Part shown: in pieces, positions 7,734 through 13,900 of the stretch
Position numbering within the stretch: the first letter of the stretch is position 1
Layout of the letters: the number at the start of each line of letters is the position of its first letter
From: Selenomonadales bacterium
GTDB taxonomy: Bacteria > Bacillota > Negativicutes > Sporomusales > UBA7701
NCBI GenBank assembly: GCA_029975165.1
Contig: JARKPR010000012.1
Span: forward strand, 124,001-188,000
Direction: 5' to 3'
Length of the DNA: 64,000 nucleotides
Position numbers and translations under genes: made by a program
The notes under the pieces: model-generated
What the model saw: only the letters and a program-made list of their open reading frames with translations
What the model was told of the DNA's origin: nothing
Database searches by the model: none

Positions 7734-8319
7734 AGGCCTTCACCTCCGCGAAGCCCTGGCTTTCCAGGGCTGAGATCGGCAGTACGGACGCCTGCTGGAA
7801 GGCGGCGGTGAGCCGGGGGATGTTGGCCCGCGCCGCCGGCAGGTCGGTCTTGTTGGCCAGCAGTATGTAGCGGTCGCGCGTCACACCGTATTGATATATC
7901 TCCCGGTCGATGTCGGCCTCGCCGCTTGGCAAGGCGTCGGCAACTTGGGTCAGGTCGATGATGTGGACGATGAAGTCGCTGCCGCGGATGAGGCTTAAGG
8001 TCTGCGCCATGCCGCGGCGGATGGCTTCGTCGTCGTGGATCTGTTCGCTGACGCCGCAGGTATCGGTGAGTTTGAAATTTACGTCGGTTTTGCCAACCCT
8101 GACCTTTAGCACCAGCGACTGCACGGCGCGCGTCTTGTGGCTCACCGGGCCGCATAGTTCGCGCCGCGCCTCGGCGAGGACGAAGTGGCGGCAGTCGAGC
8201 AGCCCGTCCGGAGCCCGGAACGTCATGTCGACAGTCCGGCAGCCGAGGTAGGCGGCGAAATTGAGGGTGAACAGCGTTTTACCGGAGTTGGGACGACCGA
8301 CGACGGCGAATTCTTTCAT
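7714..8319 (-). CDS. Small GTPase (TRAFAC, Era/EngB-like)
   Basis: 201 residues, a single G-domain. G1 is GRPNSGKT, the G3 region is LTDTCGVSE, G4 is NKTD and G5 is ISALESQ. The switch-region DTCG replaces the usual DxxG plus hydrophobic pair, so it is a divergent Era-like protein. The ATG overlaps the stop of spoVK (ATGA), with GGAGG seven bases upstream. Gene order therefore suggests it once was the second gene of a spoVK operon and might work with SpoVK or the membrane protein downstream. No precise function recognised. Confidence 0.75.
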   Translation of the reverse strand: MKEFAVVGRPNSGKTLFTLNFAAYLGCRTVDMTFRAPDGLLDCRHFVLAEARRELCGPVSHKTRAVQSLVLKVRVGKTDVNFKLTDTCGVSEQIHDDEAIRRGMAQTLSLIRGSDFIVHIIDLTQVADALPSGEADIDREIYQYGVTRDRYILLANKTDLPAARANIPRLTAAFQQASVLPISALESQGFAEVKAYVADNV

Positions 8320-8717
8320 CCTAGCACCTCCGGCAGGTCGCACGGTTCGATGGTCATGAGCTCCTCGCGGGTGAGGGTGGGTTTCGCCACCAGGCGCACC
8401 GCTTGGCGGCGCAGGGCCTTTTCGATGATATTGCGCACCGTGCGGGCGTTGCCGAAAGCCTCCTCACCGCTGCCGGCCGGCGGGTTAAGCATTTTTATCA
8501 GCGTCAATCTGGCCTGGGTGGTGAGCTGGTACTGCCGGCGGGCGCACAGCTGCTCGGCGATCGCCAGCAGCTCCTGCTGCGTGTAGTCCGGAAAATCGAT
8601 GTGGATGGGGAACCGGGAACGAAGGCCGGGATTGGTCTGGATGAAGTTCTCCATCTCTTTTTGGTAGCCGGCCAGGATGAGCACGAATTCGTCTTTATGG
8701 TCCTCCATCGATTTTAC
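8316..8717 (-). CDS. spoVK: SpoVK, C-terminal part (gene interrupted by the 4.6-kb element)
   Basis: Encodes the last 133 residues of SpoVK, a CbxX/CfqX-type AAA ATPase of the mother cell needed for spore maturation. It begins V-K-S-M-E-D-H-K-D and contains sensor 1 (FVLILAGY), the arginine finger in NPGLRSRF and the sensor-2 helical domain. It lacks Walker A and B, which are in the part at 13347-13900. The reading frame joins exactly at a GT shared by both ends. A TTG at 8720 could allow translation of this fragment, but it would be inactive alone. It is coupled by ATGA to the GTPase gene downstream. Confidence 0.93.
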   Translation of the reverse strand, partial: VKSMEDHKDEFVLILAGYQKEMENFIQTNPGLRSRFPIHIDFPDYTQQELLAIAEQLCARRQYQLTTQARLTLIKMLNPPAGSGEEAFGNARTVRNIIEKALRRQAVRLVAKPTLTREELMTIEPCDLPEVLG

Positions 8718-8735
8718 CAAACAATAGAGAAAAGT
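8698..8735. other. Attachment site, left junction of the spoVK element
   Basis: Core AC (plus strand; GT on minus) at 8716-8717. The inner arm at 8718-8735, read on the minus strand, is ACTTTTCTCTATTGTTTG. It mirrors the inner arm of the right junction at 12 of 18 positions, including the outer ACTTT and the inner TGTTTG. The outer arm is spoVK coding sequence. Confidence 0.85.
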
Positions 8736-8738
8736 GAT

Positions 8739-8764
8739 AAAAAAGCCGCCAGTTGCCTGGCGGC
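8739..8764 (-). terminator. Terminator of the 59-residue gene
   Basis: Minus-strand hairpin GCCGCCAG-GCAA-CTGGCGGC followed by TTTTTT. It lies just inside the left junction, so transcription of the small gene should stop before the spoVK 3' part. Confidence 0.85.
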
Positions 8765-8774
8765 GGAAGCTGGT

Positions 8775-8954
8775 TTATTTGCCGGCAGAGGGAGGGGCGT
8801 TCTTGCGGGCGGCCGTGGCCAGACGGCGCCGCACGCCGGCGACGATCGGCCGCAGGAACGCTTCCGTGTGGCGGTCCTCGTCCCAGGCGCCTATATGGCG
8901 GATGGTGACGCAGGTGGCGCGTTTGCCGGCGTTCACTTCACGGGTACGGTCCAT
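8775..8954 (-). CDS. 59-residue protein, candidate recombination directionality factor
   Basis: Starts at the ATG with AGAGG eight bases upstream; two upstream GTG codons are less well spaced. The protein is strongly basic (many Arg and Lys, ending near RRRLATAARKNAPPSAGK) with no recognised domain. It lies alone between the left attachment site and the divergently transcribed recombinase, with its own terminator and a sigma-E-like promoter. SprB of SP-beta (58 residues) and the RDF of the C. difficile skin element are small proteins made in the mother cell that switch a serine integrase to excision. Size, place and promoter fit that role here; sequence alone does not prove it. Confidence 0.6.
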   Translation of the reverse strand: MDRTREVNAGKRATCVTIRHIGAWDEDRHTEAFLRPIVAGVRRRLATAARKNAPPSAGK

Positions 8955-8971
8955 CGTCACCACCTCTTGGC

Positions 8972-9001
8972 AGTATATGAGGCGGTTCCCCGGCCTTATT
9001 C
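8972..9001 (-). promoter_or_regulatory. Candidate sigma-E promoter of the 59-residue gene
   Basis: On the minus strand GAATAAG (-35) and CATATACT (-10) are 15 bases apart. Bacillus sigma-E sites have about KMATATT, 13-15 bases, CATACANT; the -10 matches at 7 of 8 and the -35 at 5-6 of 7. The transcript would start at the edge of the ribosome-binding site, giving a leader of only about 12 bases, which is a weak point. Confidence 0.45.
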
Positions 9002-9086
9002 CCCCTTTTCCCCGGCGCCTGGCAGGAAACGGCGCGGCGATATTGAACTATTGCAGCAAATAACAAGCGATAGTTGGAGGACCATT

Positions 9087-10628
9087 ATGAGCAAGGCGGC
9101 GATTTACGCCCGGGTAAGCACGGCCGAACAGGCGGAAAAAGGTTATTCGCTCGATACGCAGCTCGCCGAATGCCGCCGGCGGGCCGGCGAAATTGGCGCC
9201 CGAGAAATCGAAGAATTCGTCGACGACGGCTACAGCGGCGAATTCATCGAGCGGCCGGCGCTCGACCGGCTGCGGGCCCGCCTGTCCGGCCGCGAATTCG
9301 CCTGCGTCATCGTCTACGATCCCGACCGCCTGGCCCGCAACCTCGCCCATCAGCTCATCGTCACCGAAGAGCTGGAAAAAGCGGGCGCCGAGCTGATTTT
9401 CGTGTCGGTGTCGTTCGAGCAGTCGGCGGAAGGGAAGCTGTTCTACTCCATCCGCGGCGCCATTGCCGACTACGAGAAGGAGAAAATCAAGGAACGCTCG
9501 CTGCGCGGCAAGCGGGGCAAGGCGGCCAAAGGCAAAATAATCGCCGATGCCAAGCCATTCGGCTACACCTTCGACCGCCAGGCGAGCAACTATACCGTCA
9601 ACGAACCGGAAGCGGAAGTCGTCAGGCGGATGTACAACTGGCTGGTGACCGACAAGGTCGGCACGGCCACAATCTGCAAGCGGCTCAACGAACAGGGCGT
9701 CCCCTCGCCCCGCCTCAAGAAGCCGTGGGTCGTGTCGGCCGTCTACCGGCTGCTGACCAATCCCCTTTACAAAGGCACCCATGTCGCCATGCGCTACAAA
9801 TATCAGAAGGTCGGCCAGAACAGGCGGGTCAGGACGCTCCGGCCGGAGGCGGAATGGATCGAGGTGCCGGTGCCGGCGATCGTGGACGCGGCCACCTGGC
9901 GCGCGGCCCAGCAGCAGCTCAAGGACAACAAGTCGCAGGCCAAGCGCAACCTCAAGCACGAGCAGCTTCTGAGCGGCCTCGTCTACTGCGGCAAGTGCGG
10001 GCGGAAGATGATGATCGCCTACGCCGGCCAGGCGGCCGCCCCGAAAAGCTACTACGTCTGCGTCAGCCAGCGCAGCAACACCTACCGCTACTCCGGCCAG
10101 GCGCGCTGCGACGCCCGCCGTGTTCCAACCGAGGCGCTGGACAACGCCGTTTTCGACCACCTGTGCCAGTTGAGCGCCAACCCCAAGCAGATCAAGCAAC
10201 ACCTTCTCGCCTCCCACTACGCCGCCGCCGGCAGCCAGGGCCAGAACCTGTCGGCCGCGCTGGAGAGGCTGACCGACAACGAGGCGCGGCTCATAAAGCA
10301 GCGGGAAATGGTGCTGCGCTGGTATCGGCAGCAGATGCTCGGCGACGCGGAAGCCGAGCGGCAGCTGGCTGAAATCCGCCTCCGCCTGCACGATATCGAA
10401 CAGAATAAGAAAAAAGTCCAGGAAGAACTGGCGGCCGCCTCCCCCTTCCTCTCCCCCGCCGAGCTGGCCGCCGAGCTCCGGCAGCGCTTCGCGGCCGGCG
10501 ACCTGCCGTACGAGGAGAAAGCGGCCGCCGTCCGGGCCGTGCTGGAAAAGGTCGTCGTCGAGCGGCGCGATGCCACCAGGGCCCGCGGTAGCCGGCCGGA
10601 CATCGGCATCACCCTGAAGTTCCGCTGA
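9087..10628 (+). CDS. Large serine recombinase (site-specific integrase/excisionase)
   Basis: 513 residues with the full large-serine-recombinase layout. The resolvase catalytic domain has nucleophile Ser11 in YARVSTAEQ, YDPDRLARN and a long E helix near YEKEKIKERS. The recombinase domain has KPFGYTFD and LTNPLYKG. A zinc ribbon begins near residue 300 (YCGKCGRKM, then two more Cys), followed by a coiled-coil segment and C-terminal tail. It should cut at the central GT of its att sites and exchange strands, integrating alone and excising with a directionality factor. TTGGAGG six bases before the ATG fixes the start. It reads away from spoVK and heads the cargo genes. Confidence 0.96.
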   Translation: MSKAAIYARVSTAEQAEKGYSLDTQLAECRRRAGEIGAREIEEFVDDGYSGEFIERPALDRLRARLSGREFACVIVYDPDRLARNLAHQLIVTEELEKAGAELIFVSVSFEQSAEGKLFYSIRGAIADYEKEKIKERSLRGKRGKAAKGKIIADAKPFGYTFDRQASNYTVNEPEAEVVRRMYNWLVTDKVGTATICKRLNEQGVPSPRLKKPWVVSAVYRLLTNPLYKGTHVAMRYKYQKVGQNRRVRTLRPEAEWIEVPVPAIVDAATWRAAQQQLKDNKSQAKRNLKHEQLLSGLVYCGKCGRKMMIAYAGQAAAPKSYYVCVSQRSNTYRYSGQARCDARRVPTEALDNAVFDHLCQLSANPKQIKQHLLASHYAAAGSQGQNLSAALERLTDNEARLIKQREMVLRWYRQQMLGDAEAERQLAEIRLRLHDIEQNKKKVQEELAAASPFLSPAELAAELRQRFAAGDLPYEEKAAAVRAVLEKVVVERRDATRARGSRPDIGITLKFR

Positions 10629-10754
10629 GGAGGAAAATTTTCGATGAAGAGGAAGATTTTCGGCGGGCCGTAAATTGTCCCAATTTTCAGCGGTAGGTGT
10701 TTGGCCGCCGACGGCGAAAGTTATTTTTAACATCTGACCAGGAGGTTTTTCTAC

Positions 10755-10904
10755 ATGAAGTTCAGCTGTCCGGAATGTCGTAATCCGATTAAACTGACCA
10801 TGGAAGAGATTCAAAAGCCGCGTTGCTCAGTCGTCTGCCCTTCCTGTCAGAAGAAAATCGAGCTCAAAAACAACATGCCTCAGACCCAGGACCAGAATCG
10901 CTGA
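10755..10904 (+). CDS. Zinc-ribbon peptide
   Basis: 49 residues, with AGGAGG before the ATG. Two CxxC knuckles (CPEC near residue 5 and CPSC near residue 28, plus a Cys at 24) make a likely zinc ribbon; the C-terminus is polar and Gln-rich. A terminator follows directly. Possible roles include nucleic-acid or protein binding; no known family. Confidence 0.75.
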   Translation: MKFSCPECRNPIKLTMEEIQKPRCSVVCPSCQKKIELKNNMPQTQDQNR

Positions 10905-10932
10905 ACTTATTGATTCTATGTCTCACTTTCCC

Positions 10933-10959
10933 AATCCCCCGCAGCGCGGGGGATTTTTG
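10933..10959 (+). terminator. Terminator after the zinc-ribbon gene
   Basis: AATCCCCCGC-AGC-GCGGGGGATT hairpin running into TTTTTG. It ends the recombinase/zinc-ribbon unit, so the genes from 11048 need their own promoter. Confidence 0.9.
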
Positions 10960-11047
10960 TTTGCCGTGCCGGCTTGCCGCCGGCAAGGATTTTCCCCGCC
11001 CGCGTCGAAGGCTACAGAGAAAAACTCTGCTTGCGAGGGATATAAAT

Positions 11048-11632
11048 ATGATCCGTAACGGCTTATTCTCCATAGTTATCCTGGCGGCGCTGCTCGCCGC
11101 CGCGGCAGGGCCGGCAGCGGCCGGCACCCAGGCCCTGGGGGGCACGGTGACGATCAGCTACGATCTGCACCGCATCACGACCATCGCCAGCAACCAGCTG
11201 GCTGTTTGGATCGAGGATGCCGACGGCCGGCTGGTCAAAACCTTGTTCGTGACCAGATTCACCGGTCAAGGCGGCTACGAGCGCCGGCCCGAGTGCCTGC
11301 CGCTGTGGCGCAAGGCCGCCGGCCTCGACGGCCCGCCAACCGCCGAGGTGGACGCCGTGACCGGCGCGACGCAGCAGCCGGGACGCCAAACGCTCGTCTG
11401 GGACGGCACCGACGCCGCCGGCCAGCCGGTCACGCCCGGCAAGTACGTGTACAAGCTCGAAGGCTCGGTCTACTGGACGAAGGAAGTGCTGTGGAGTGGC
11501 GAAATCTCCGTCGGCGGCGCTGCGGCCGCGTCGCGGGCCACCGTCGCCTACCTGCCGCCCGAAGCCCAGGGCGGCGAACAGCCGCTCGCCAACGTGACCG
11601 CCGTCTTCACCCCGGCCGCACGGTCCCGCTAG
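11048..11632 (+). CDS. Secreted DUF2271-family protein
   Basis: 194 residues with a clear signal peptide (NGLFSIVILAALLAAAAGPAAA, probable cut after AAAG or AGPAAA). The mature part has the family pattern: VTISYDLHRITTIASNQLAVWIED, then VDAVTGATQ, WDGTDAAGQPVTPGKY and a closing beta region. DUF2271 proteins are predicted to be exported and often lie near iron or flavin-transfer genes, but have no assigned activity. GAGGGA lies upstream of the ATG. It is the first of three closely spaced cargo genes; finding it within a recombinase element is unusual. Confidence 0.75.
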   Translation: MIRNGLFSIVILAALLAAAAGPAAAGTQALGGTVTISYDLHRITTIASNQLAVWIEDADGRLVKTLFVTRFTGQGGYERRPECLPLWRKAAGLDGPPTAEVDAVTGATQQPGRQTLVWDGTDAAGQPVTPGKYVYKLEGSVYWTKEVLWSGEISVGGAAAASRATVAYLPPEAQGGEQPLANVTAVFTPAARSR

Positions 11633-11642
11633 GAGGCCGGCC

Positions 11643-12413
11643 GTGAAAAAAACGCTTCTCATCCTTCCACTGCTCGCCGCCCTGCTGCTGGCAGCCATGG
11701 CGCCCGCCGCGGCGGCTGCTGCCGACGACCGGCTGCAGATCAGCTTCAAAGGCAAGGTCCGCTGGGTGGAATCGCTGGCGACCTTCGCTCTTCTCGCCGA
11801 CGACGGCAAAAAATATCACCCGGTCAAGAAACTGCCGCGCGCCTACGAGAAGGACGACCTCGCCGTCGTCGTCGAGGGCGTGCTGCGGCCCGACCTCGTG
11901 GGCAGCCGCATGTACGGCCCGGCCCTGGAGGTGCAGCAGATAACAAGGGTGGACAAGTACGTCAGCCCCGAGGAATGGGAGGCCGTCCGCCTGCTGCTCC
12001 TGCGCATGCAAGCCTTCAACGATAAGAACCTCGGCCAGCTGCAGGCGATCGACATCATGGCCGGCAAGCTGACCCGCGAACAATTCTTATCCTGGCTGGA
12101 AGGCTGGGGCAGCTTCACCCTCCACTACGTCGAAGCCGTCAGCATCGCCGGCCCGCGGCCGGCCGGCCCCACCATTGAAGGCATCTGCCTTTACAGCCGC
12201 GCGCGGGAGAACAGCATGGCCATCTCCGGCGACGTCCAGTTCGCGATGATGAAATTCTCCCTGGCCAAGGATGGCGGCAAGTGGCGCTTTACCGCCACCG
12301 AAGGCTACCGGCCCGATCCCGATAGAGATATCACCGAGGTAGCCGCAGGCTATCTGGAAAAGGCCAAGGAGCGCTTCGGCACGACCGATCTCGCTGCCGC
12401 CGCCAAGAAATGA
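11643..12413 (+). CDS. Secreted protein of unknown function
   Basis: 256 residues: Lys-rich start, a long hydrophobic signal segment and an Ala-rich cleavage region (KKTLLILPLLAALLLAAMA). The mature half begins with a small beta domain (LQISFKGKVRWVESLATFALLADDGKKY) that looks like an OB or SH3-type barrel. A helical segment with LTREQFLSWLEGWG follows, then a closing beta segment (KDGGKWRFTATEGY). GGAGG lies upstream, ten bases after the previous gene, so the pair is probably one transcript. No family recognised. Confidence 0.65.
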   Translation: MKKTLLILPLLAALLLAAMAPAAAAAADDRLQISFKGKVRWVESLATFALLADDGKKYHPVKKLPRAYEKDDLAVVVEGVLRPDLVGSRMYGPALEVQQITRVDKYVSPEEWEAVRLLLLRMQAFNDKNLGQLQAIDIMAGKLTREQFLSWLEGWGSFTLHYVEAVSIAGPRPAGPTIEGICLYSRARENSMAISGDVQFAMMKFSLAKDGGKWRFTATEGYRPDPDRDITEVAAGYLEKAKERFGTTDLAAAAKK

Positions 12414-12435
12414 CCAACGCAAAGGAACGGTGCAA

Positions 12436-13308
12436 ATGACCGCAGCCAACGACAGAACCGCCGCCCTGCCCCCAACCTGCGACTTCGTCGCCCTGGACTT
12501 CGAAACCGCCAACCGCGACTGGACCAGCATCTGCGCCGTCGGCCTGGCCTTCGTCGCCGGCGGCCGGATCGTCGCCAATCCGTCCTGGCTGGTGCGCCCG
12601 CCGGAGATGATCTTCGACCCCGGCTTCGTCAGAATCCACGGCATCACCGCCGACCAAGTGGCGGACGCGCCTGAATTCGGCGACCTGTGGCCGCTGCTGG
12701 CGCCGCATATGGAAGGGCGGATAATCGTCGCCCATAACGCCGAATTCGACGTCAACGTCCTCATAAGGTCGCTCGACCGCTACCGCATCCCCCGCCCGAG
12801 CGCCGAATATTCCTGCACCAAGATCATCGCCCAGCGCACCTGGCCGGGGCTCAAACGCTACGGCCTCGCGGCCCTGGCCGAACGGAACGGCATCGTCTTC
12901 CGCCACCACGACGCCGGCGAGGACGCCAGCGTCTGCGCCCAGGTAGCCATCAGAGCCTGCCTGGAAAAAGGCGCGGCCGATTTCGCCAGCCTCCACGAAG
13001 GGCTCCGCATCACCCGCGGCCGTATCTACCCGGACGGCCACGACCCGCTGCGCGAAGAACCGGCCGCGTCCCCCCTGCCCGCTTTCGGCCGCTGGGACAG
13101 TCGCCTCCATGCCCGGCCGGAGCAGCTCAAACGCCAGCAGCGGGCCCGCACGCTCGACGACGCCGTCGTCGACCGGGCGGCCGGCACCGGGATGATCAAC
13201 GGCTACGCCGTCACCCTGGACAGCTGCACATGCGCCGATTTCCAGGGACGGAAGACGCCGTGCAAGCATATTTACAAGCTGTATTTCGAATTGAACAACG
13301 GCTGCTGA
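12436..13308 (+). CDS. DEDDh 3'-5' exonuclease with C-terminal SWIM zinc finger
   Basis: 290 residues. The N-terminal DnaQ-like exonuclease domain has Exo[11 protein letters not shown] (D and E metal ligands), Exo[13 protein letters not shown] and Exo[11 protein letters not shown], so all catalytic residues are present. After a linker rich in Pro and Arg, residues ~265-285 carry [20 protein letters not shown], a SWIM finger (CxC...CxH). SWIM fingers bind DNA or proteins, including in recombination factors. The ATG has AAAGGA nine bases upstream; an in-frame GTG two codons earlier is too close to it. It ends 20 bases before the inner arm of the right att site. Its role in the element is unknown. 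Confidence 0.85.
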
Positions 13309-13328
13309 CAGCGGCCGTTGTTTGGCGT

Positions 13329-13366
13329 ACTTTATTACGCTGTTTGACCATGCAATCAATAGCCTC
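13329..13366. other. Attachment site, right junction of the spoVK element
   Basis: Core AC (plus; GT on minus) at 13347-13348. The inner arm at 13329-13346 is ACTTTATTACGCTGTTTG. Joined head to head with the left inner arm it makes TGTTTG-GT-CAAACA with outer ACTTT/AAAGT, as expected for an attP. The outer arm is spoVK codons for A-I-D-C-M. Confidence 0.85.
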
Positions 13367-13900
13367 TTTACCGAAATCCTTTTCGCCGCCGCGGGCCAAC
13401 GAATAAGCCTCGTCGATGAACAGGATGCCGCCGTAGGCCTTTTTCAGCTGCTCCCGCGTCTTCTGCGCCGTGTGGCCGATATATTCGCCGACAAGGTCGG
13501 CCCGTTCCACCTCGATGAGGTGGCCGCGGCTCAGCACCCCCATCGCCCGGAAAATCTTGCCCATGATCCTGGCCACGGTCGTCTTGCCTGTGCCGGGATT
13601 GCCCTTGAATACCATGTGGAGCACGAGCGGTTCGGTAACGAGCCGCTCTTTTTGGCGCCATTTCTGGATCTCGATGAAGGCGTATATCTCCCGCACCAGC
13701 TTCTTCACCTCGCCGAGGCCGATGAGGACGTCGAGCTCGTGCAGAATCTCCTCCACCCGGTGCTGCGGGGCGCCGCTGTCCACACGGGCCGGTTGTGCGG
13801 CGACGCCGTCCATCTCGCGCAGCAGCCGGCACGCCTCCACCGGCGGCAGTTCGCCGGCCGCCACCGCCGCCAGCACATCTTTGGGCCACAGATACGGCAT
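13347..13900 (-). CDS. spoVK: SpoVK, N-terminal part (gene interrupted by the 4.6-kb element)
   Basis: Residues 1-184 of SpoVK plus the first two bases of codon 185. A helical N-terminus is followed by the AAA core with Walker [10 protein letters not shown] (100-108) and Walker [13 protein letters not shown] (157-168), then FGKEAIDCM at the junction. Beyond the junction the frame runs 44 codons into the element (to 13211) with unrelated sequence and no sensor 1 or arginine finger, so the unexcised product cannot form a working ATPase. Start ATG with GGGGGCGGTG upstream. Its place between hfq and hflX matches Bacillus, where spoVK sits in the same neighbourhood. Confidence 0.93.

Follow-up and report, generated by a model that had tools for sequence, protein, structure and literature searches.

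The genes described as split by intervening elements include sigK, spoVFB, spoIVFB, spoVR, spsM, gerE and kamA (PMC6957869), and yabG has been added to the split sporulation genes (PMC10747680). We describe a split spoVK in a 64,000-nucleotide stretch, hereafter the window, from the draft genome of a Selenomonadales bacterium (assembly GCA_029975165.1, contig JARKPR010000012.1, positions 124,001 to 188,000), where an element carrying a large serine recombinase stands between two parts of the gene. Among the closest described systems is the skin element of sigK (SpoIVCA/Skr in B. subtilis; CD1231/CD1234 in C. difficile), which has in common with this locus a large serine recombinase, an in-frame split of a mother-cell gene and a small directionality factor, a candidate in our case (PMC5025042, PMC6957869). 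The C. difficile factor, CD1234, is under the control of sigma-E and SpoIIID (PMC5025042). Unlike skin, the element described here lies in spoVK rather than sigK, and no phage structural family was found among the scanned proteins of the window element; its excision is predicted from comparison, and its likeness to SpoIVCA, Skr, CD1231 and CD1234 is drawn from published descriptions, not from direct sequence comparison.

The gin element of gerE in B. cereus (GirC/GirX) is likewise not a prophage, encodes a small protein, the 42-aa GirX, and has an attP symmetric about its central dinucleotide; it measures 28.6 kb and carries three recombinases, whereas the spoVK element measures 4.6 kb and carries one (PMC5595907). 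SP-beta in spsM (SprA/SprB), vfbin in spoVFB and yin in yabG also split sporulation genes with a recombinase-bearing element, but they are described as prophages or prophage-like and occupy other genes (PMC6957869, PMC10747680). Hin-type serine invertases perform site-specific inversion (PMC8987985), a mode that we propose below for two related genomes; there, in contrast, the recombinase is of the integrase type and has attL and attR as its sites, and inverting the segment, of about 290 kb, would restore a coding gene.

Searches of open-access PMC text yielded no description of an element in spoVK, in keeping with the initial annotation of this DNA, which knew of none; one paper lists spoVK as absent from one or two genomes, owing to a frameshift or a possible error of sequencing (PMC3533761). 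We consider it highly probable that spoVK in the window is interrupted by a skin-like, domesticated gene-intervening element that undergoes programmed rearrangement. This reading, put forward in the initial annotation, is supported by comparative evidence: splits at the same place in 25 of 48 genomes, intact recombinases in 25 of 25, restoration of the frame in 23 of 23, symmetry of attP, purifying selection, and a pair of species (G017 and G019 in our numbering of genomes) that differ at the sites. If spoVK is indeed rejoined, it would join a short list of sporulation genes for which cutting and rejoining are known.

Two parts of spoVK flank the element

Frame inspection and profile search identified two complementary minus-strand frames encoding SpoVK, 13900-13347 and 8717-8316. 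The former matched the SpoVK profile TIGR02881 over positions 2-141 with 243 bits and the latter over positions 133-261 with 161 bits, bearing out the pair of frames recognized in the initial annotation. The parts and their junctions are as follows.

13347..13900, minus strand: 5' spoVK part, 184 codons plus the GT core; AAA+ Walker A and B motifs; the frame continues to 13211.
8316..8717, minus strand: 3' spoVK part, from the GT core to the stop codon; AAA lid domain.
13300..13375, minus strand: attL, spoVK up to the GT core (13348-13347) followed by half of attP; outer limits approximate.
8690..8765, minus strand: attR, the other half of attP, the GT core (8717-8716), then spoVK; outer limits approximate.

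Both parts meet the element at the GT, within one valine codon. Core positions and domain matches uphold the earlier reading that 4,631 bp with a large serine recombinase lie between the parts, this being the length of the element. Joining the parts at the shared GT does keep the frame, as first proposed, and gives a stop-free protein of 317 aa that matches TIGR02881 over positions 2-261 with 413 bits; the curated cut-off is 422.95, and 12 of 22 intact relatives also score below it. The initial annotation was right to assign 13900-13347 to SpoVK and mistaken in ending the frame at the junction, since the frame stays open as far as 13211, a further 45 codons if the valine codon is taken as the first. 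An intact second spoVK, which that annotation had named as a point that would tell against its proposal, did not appear in a search of the whole genome (a draft of 100 contigs); the search returned the two parts only, followed by other AAA proteins at about 23 bits. Judged from these frames, the chromosomal spoVK is in two parts that are unable to encode the full protein.

The split recurs at the same place

Related genomes were searched for intact spoVK and for the same insertion, a check that had been suggested at the outset. Across the class, 380 genomes were searched and 144 matched at E 1e-20, of which 48 were kept as spoVK on the basis of a single match of at least 397 bits or of spoVK-type halves. 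The other 96 were dropped by score (at most 321 bits, in one or more matches); G128 and G336 were examined individually and rejected as split spoVK. Among the 48 spoVK-bearing genomes, 25 are split at the same place, 22 are intact and one (G006) is frameshifted. The gene is split in all six genomes of the same family, and in the order (28 genomes) it is split in 14, intact in 11, frameshifted in one and without a match in two, G010 and G013, which are 65% and 72% complete. The split has therefore been kept in every sampled family member and in about half of the class genomes counted, and chance is excluded because it recurs at the same place in 25 genomes.

Both parts were found in 23 of the split genomes, and one part in G100 and G105. 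The two parts lie in the same direction on one contig in 20 of the 23, at spacings of 2,969 to 23,103 bp; they stand on opposite strands in G017 and on different contigs in G018 and G318. Joining at the GT restores the reading frame in all 23, with a product of 313-328 aa in 20; the lengths in G003 (288) and G015 (269) are cut by the stretch taken, and that in G118 (358) is counted from an upstream start.

A phylum sample of 398 genomes gave 278 with matches, ten of which were picked by eye for rechecking. Only G488, from another class, proved to be split at the same place; its parts (L203/L204, G488:C60) are about 75.6 kb apart, and a different recombinase (27-32% identity) adjoins the 3' part. 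From its sequence, this split looks like an independent use of the same place. We did not count G753, where all that is seen at the spoVK junction is an 18-bp overlap between the ends of two contigs (L205/L206); one possible cause is a mixed population, some members having the insert and others lacking it. Four others (G727, G663, G706 and G584) gave longer or weaker AAA proteins, and the partial matches in G614, G707, G713 and G754 are broken elsewhere.

Recombinase and attachment sites

~9087-10628, plus strand: large serine recombinase with Resolvase, Recombinase and Zn_ribbon_recom domains; 513 aa when translated from the ATG at 9087; antisense to spoVK.

A full-length large serine recombinase of a single family lies antisense to spoVK in all 25 split loci, the 24 relatives' proteins being 48-83% identical to that of the window. 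In their alignment, residues R14, S16, D85, R86 and R89, which we take to be the catalytic residues, are invariant. A like-for-like search of 31 genomes, comprising 8 of the 25 split and 23 unsplit, gave a recombinase match above 850 bits in every split genome and in no unsplit one; the best match in an unsplit genome reached 662 bits (G111), and G019 keeps a broken remnant (260 bits).

The reconstructed attP arms form an inverted repeat centred on the GT, with a mean of 16.5 of 28 positions matching against 8.2 (standard deviation 2.4) for shuffled arms. Symmetry is best when centred on the GT at 18 of the 23 sites, and at one (G008) the GT is tied. Such symmetry about a central dinucleotide is the usual design for serine recombinases (PMC5595907).

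Two further observations concern the recombinase. The groups within the family differ strikingly around residues 80-130 (window numbering), in the catalytic domain, where YDPDR and YAPDR types can be told apart by eye; these stretches may reflect domain exchange. Viral contig L159 (IMGVR_UViG_3300021518_000003) encodes a nearly full-length recombinase 47% identical to that of the window, and no spoVK part was found in the 13.5 kb of this contig that the search covered.

A candidate directionality factor

8775..8954, minus strand: 59-aa product, counted from the ATG, in a frame open from 8963; candidate recombination directionality factor, oriented divergently to the recombinase.
8972..9000, minus strand: block AATA-N17-CATATACT, resembling a promoter and lying ahead of the candidate directionality factor.

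A small gene is present in all 25 elements. Single-linkage BLAST at E 1e-3 links 18 of them, eight divergent from the recombinase and ten directly upstream on the same strand; the seven from Pelosinus belong to a different family, and in G098, G099 and G100 the small gene stands kilobases from the recombinase. The small proteins have no match in Pfam and one weak match in PHROGs, to a family whose function is unassigned there. GirX of gin was also identified by its conservation and has no known motif (PMC5595907).

In the g11-type and Pelosinus lineages, 13 of 17 elements carry a block RGACAAYC-N6..8-GCATA that lies 32-61 bp ahead of the start of the small gene. The block has no other occurrence in 242 kb of element and flanking sequence and gave one hit in 20 simulations; as the count was made in the very alignments that had supplied the pattern, these figures are not an independent test and weigh the less for the reading proposed here. 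Among 174 other loci, which had been selected for their recombinases, 14 have the block as well; these are copies of the same places or other recombinase loci. The GACAA resembles the SpoIIID site and the CATA the -10 element of sigma-E or sigma-K promoters. In the window's genus, AATA-N17-CATATA is found at the same spacing in five of five genomes. These blocks suggest that the small gene could be under sporulation control.

Other relatives of the recombinase, at L149, L150, L156 and L175, are also accompanied by a small gene behind a GACAA-CATA block, and the neighbours at L150 and L156 resemble spoIIR and sigG by eye. These relatives may interrupt or serve other sporulation genes.

Proposed mechanism and the points against it

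We propose that the directionality factor, putatively the product of 8775-8954 (minus strand), would be made in the sporulating mother cell under sigma-E/SpoIIID-type control and would switch the recombinase to recombination of attL with attR. The element would then leave as a circle and spoVK would be rejoined in frame, while the forespore would not recombine and the spore would inherit the split gene. A recombinase of this kind would, in one related genus, restore spoVK by inverting a segment of about 290 kb. The mother-cell role of spoVK is taken from B. subtilis, not from this host: there, spoVK is expressed in the mother cell (under sigma-E with SpoIIID, and under sigma-K), and sporulation did not stay at the wild-type level when it was inactivated. 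Of 17 sigma-E genes that SpoIIID raises in that species, two showed almost complete dependence on SpoIIID, namely spoVK and spoIVCA, which encodes the skin recombinase (PMC517825).

Several observations count against this scheme. That spoVK is rejoined as the cells sporulate, and in the mother cell alone, is a step that we infer, as is the assignment of the small gene as directionality factor. The 18 linked small proteins, from lineages A and B, are weakly similar, with one invariant column, and no homology was found between the Pelosinus small protein and the other family (hhalign probability 0.4). A predicted model of the window's small protein, with a mean predicted local distance difference test (pLDDT) score of 74, returned 11 matches in a fold search of the PDB, none at E 0.001 or better. 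The window's own lineage is without the RGACAAYC block and has a different block there, and when the upstream blocks of two lineages were inspected by eye, neither showed a clean sigma-E -35 element (spacing from PMC517825). The GT is not the best centre of attP in G003, G005, G102 and G104. Lastly, the host keeps spoIVA, but a search of its draft genome at E 1e-20 found the 3' part of sigK only and not the 5' part, so sporulation of the window strain is not assured.

Alternative explanations

An ordinary integrating element with its attB in spoVK, excising at random or under stress and unrelated to development, is in our view an unlikely alternative to the skin-like element. Such an element would fit the recombinase tree, in which G106, G118, G120 and G318, from other families, group with genus g11 and thereby suggest horizontal transfer (G118, G120 and G318 being long branches in the SpoVK tree); it would also fit the presence of recombinase relatives on viral contigs, up to 47% identical among the matches listed, and the intact spoVK of several relatives. 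Elsewhere the trees point the other way: those of the recombinase and of joined SpoVK agree within the lineage of G000-G005, G008 and G009 and within Pelosinus, some forks being weakly supported, which suggests vertical descent in these two lineages. The gene content of the window element also tells against an ordinary element; its cargo is as follows.

10755..10904, plus strand: 49-aa zinc-ribbon-like protein; weak matches only; related gene in 5 elements.
11045..11632, plus strand: protein with DUF2271 and FlgD_ig domains; start approximate; appears to be exported.
11643..12413, plus strand: 256-aa protein of no known family; appears to be exported; related protein in 8 of 8 elements of the window's lineage.
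12430..13308, plus strand: DnaQ-like exonuclease ending in a SWIM zinc finger at the C terminus; all 8 elements of the window's lineage have a related protein.

Two of these proteins thus recur in all eight elements of the lineage. The scanned proteins of the window element matched integrase and nucleic-acid-metabolism families only, with no phage structural or conjugation family among them; the exonuclease matches a phage DNA-metabolism family. The guanine-plus-cytosine fraction of the element is 0.640, compared with 0.635 for the remaining window and 0.666 for the 5-kb flanks. The conserved, sporulation-like block upstream of the small gene in two lineages is a further point against an ordinary element.

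It is much less plausible that spoVK is dead and the element a fixed insertion. Gene loss would let the parts or the recombinase decay, which weakens this reading: both parts are in frame in 23 of 23 genomes and the recombinase is intact in 25 of 25. In 47 within-group pairs, with G100 and G105 left out and many synonymous values saturated, the ratio of nonsynonymous to synonymous substitution rates (dN/dS), where defined, lay at 0.05-0.16 in the recombinase; in spoVK it lay at 0.02-0.11 in the 5' part and at 0.01-0.14 in the 3' part. Intact spoVK gave 0.02-0.08 in five of eight pairs, two others being saturated and one having failed. By these ratios, the recombinase and both parts of spoVK are under purifying selection. 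What speaks for a dead gene, and to that extent against a functional split, is that the upper value for the 3' part lies somewhat above those for intact spoVK, from which the 3' part may be slightly less constrained; in addition, G006 is frameshifted and the incomplete G010 and G013 have no spoVK match.

Separate production of the two parts, followed by their assembly into a split AAA+ protein, is very improbable. Each part is an open frame, but the 3' part lacks a conserved start codon or leader, what precedes its core being an attP arm that varies between lineages, and the extension of the 5' frame beyond the junction varies between species from 2 to 45 codons, counted from the valine codon. 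Assembly error or contamination, conceivable for a 100-contig draft, can be dismissed almost entirely, as the same split is found in genomes of one to three contigs (G001, G022, G024, G098 and G102) and in the complete chromosome of Pelosinus fermentans JBW45. Because this carrier is a cultured isolate (PMC4582584), the claim for a rejoined spoVK is directly testable.

A possible inversion form in genus g11

In G017, of genus g11, the two parts of spoVK stand on opposite strands, 292 kb apart, so that rejoining them would need an inversion. The recombinase and attR of this genome adjoin genes read by eye as pyrF, pyrC and a transporter, and the arrangement around the 3' part is the same in G018. 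G019, a close relative of G017, has an intact spoVK and a truncated recombinase at the same locus, where the arms of an attP are symmetric about the GT at 19 of 28 positions. In stretches sampled from G017 and G019, all three matches outside the segment were collinear and 16 of the 17 inside it were inverted; the remaining one, 1,272 bp long and at 85%, pairs with a part of G019 that lies beyond the segment. The inversion breaks within a few bases of the core. Because the segment is inverted and its breaks lie at the core, recombination of attL with attR, or its reverse, occurred between the lineages of G017 and G019.

We put forward, as a proposal whose chances we judge to be even, that the recombinase family works in two modes. 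In most lineages the element would be excisable; in g11 (G017 and probably G018), where the recombinase occupies a separate locus, a programmed inversion of about 290 kb in the mother cell would join the two parts, and in G019 the inversion would have become fixed before the recombinase decayed. If this is true, the rebuilding of a coding gene by a programmed chromosome-scale inversion in differentiating cells would represent a new mode of developmental DNA rearrangement for bacteria.

A second attP-like site in G019 lies about 2.2 kb from the first (L173, G019:C1:4528000-4538000; at about 5790 and at 7968-8032). Both attP-like sites stand beside the decayed recombinase, about 255 kb from the intact spoVK.

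Related observations

The 25 natural versions of one recombinase family, each with attachment sites and a candidate directionality factor, should be useful for questions of direction control and as a starting point for new integrases. Automated annotation of these spore-formers will list spoVK as a broken gene although it may be functional, and the same holds for sigK in many members of the order. Splits of sigK near profile position 137-148 are found in many genomes of the order (G000-G027), for example G001, G007, G009, G015, G017, G022 and G023, independently of spoVK; sigK scores over the cut-off in 13 of the 28 genomes.

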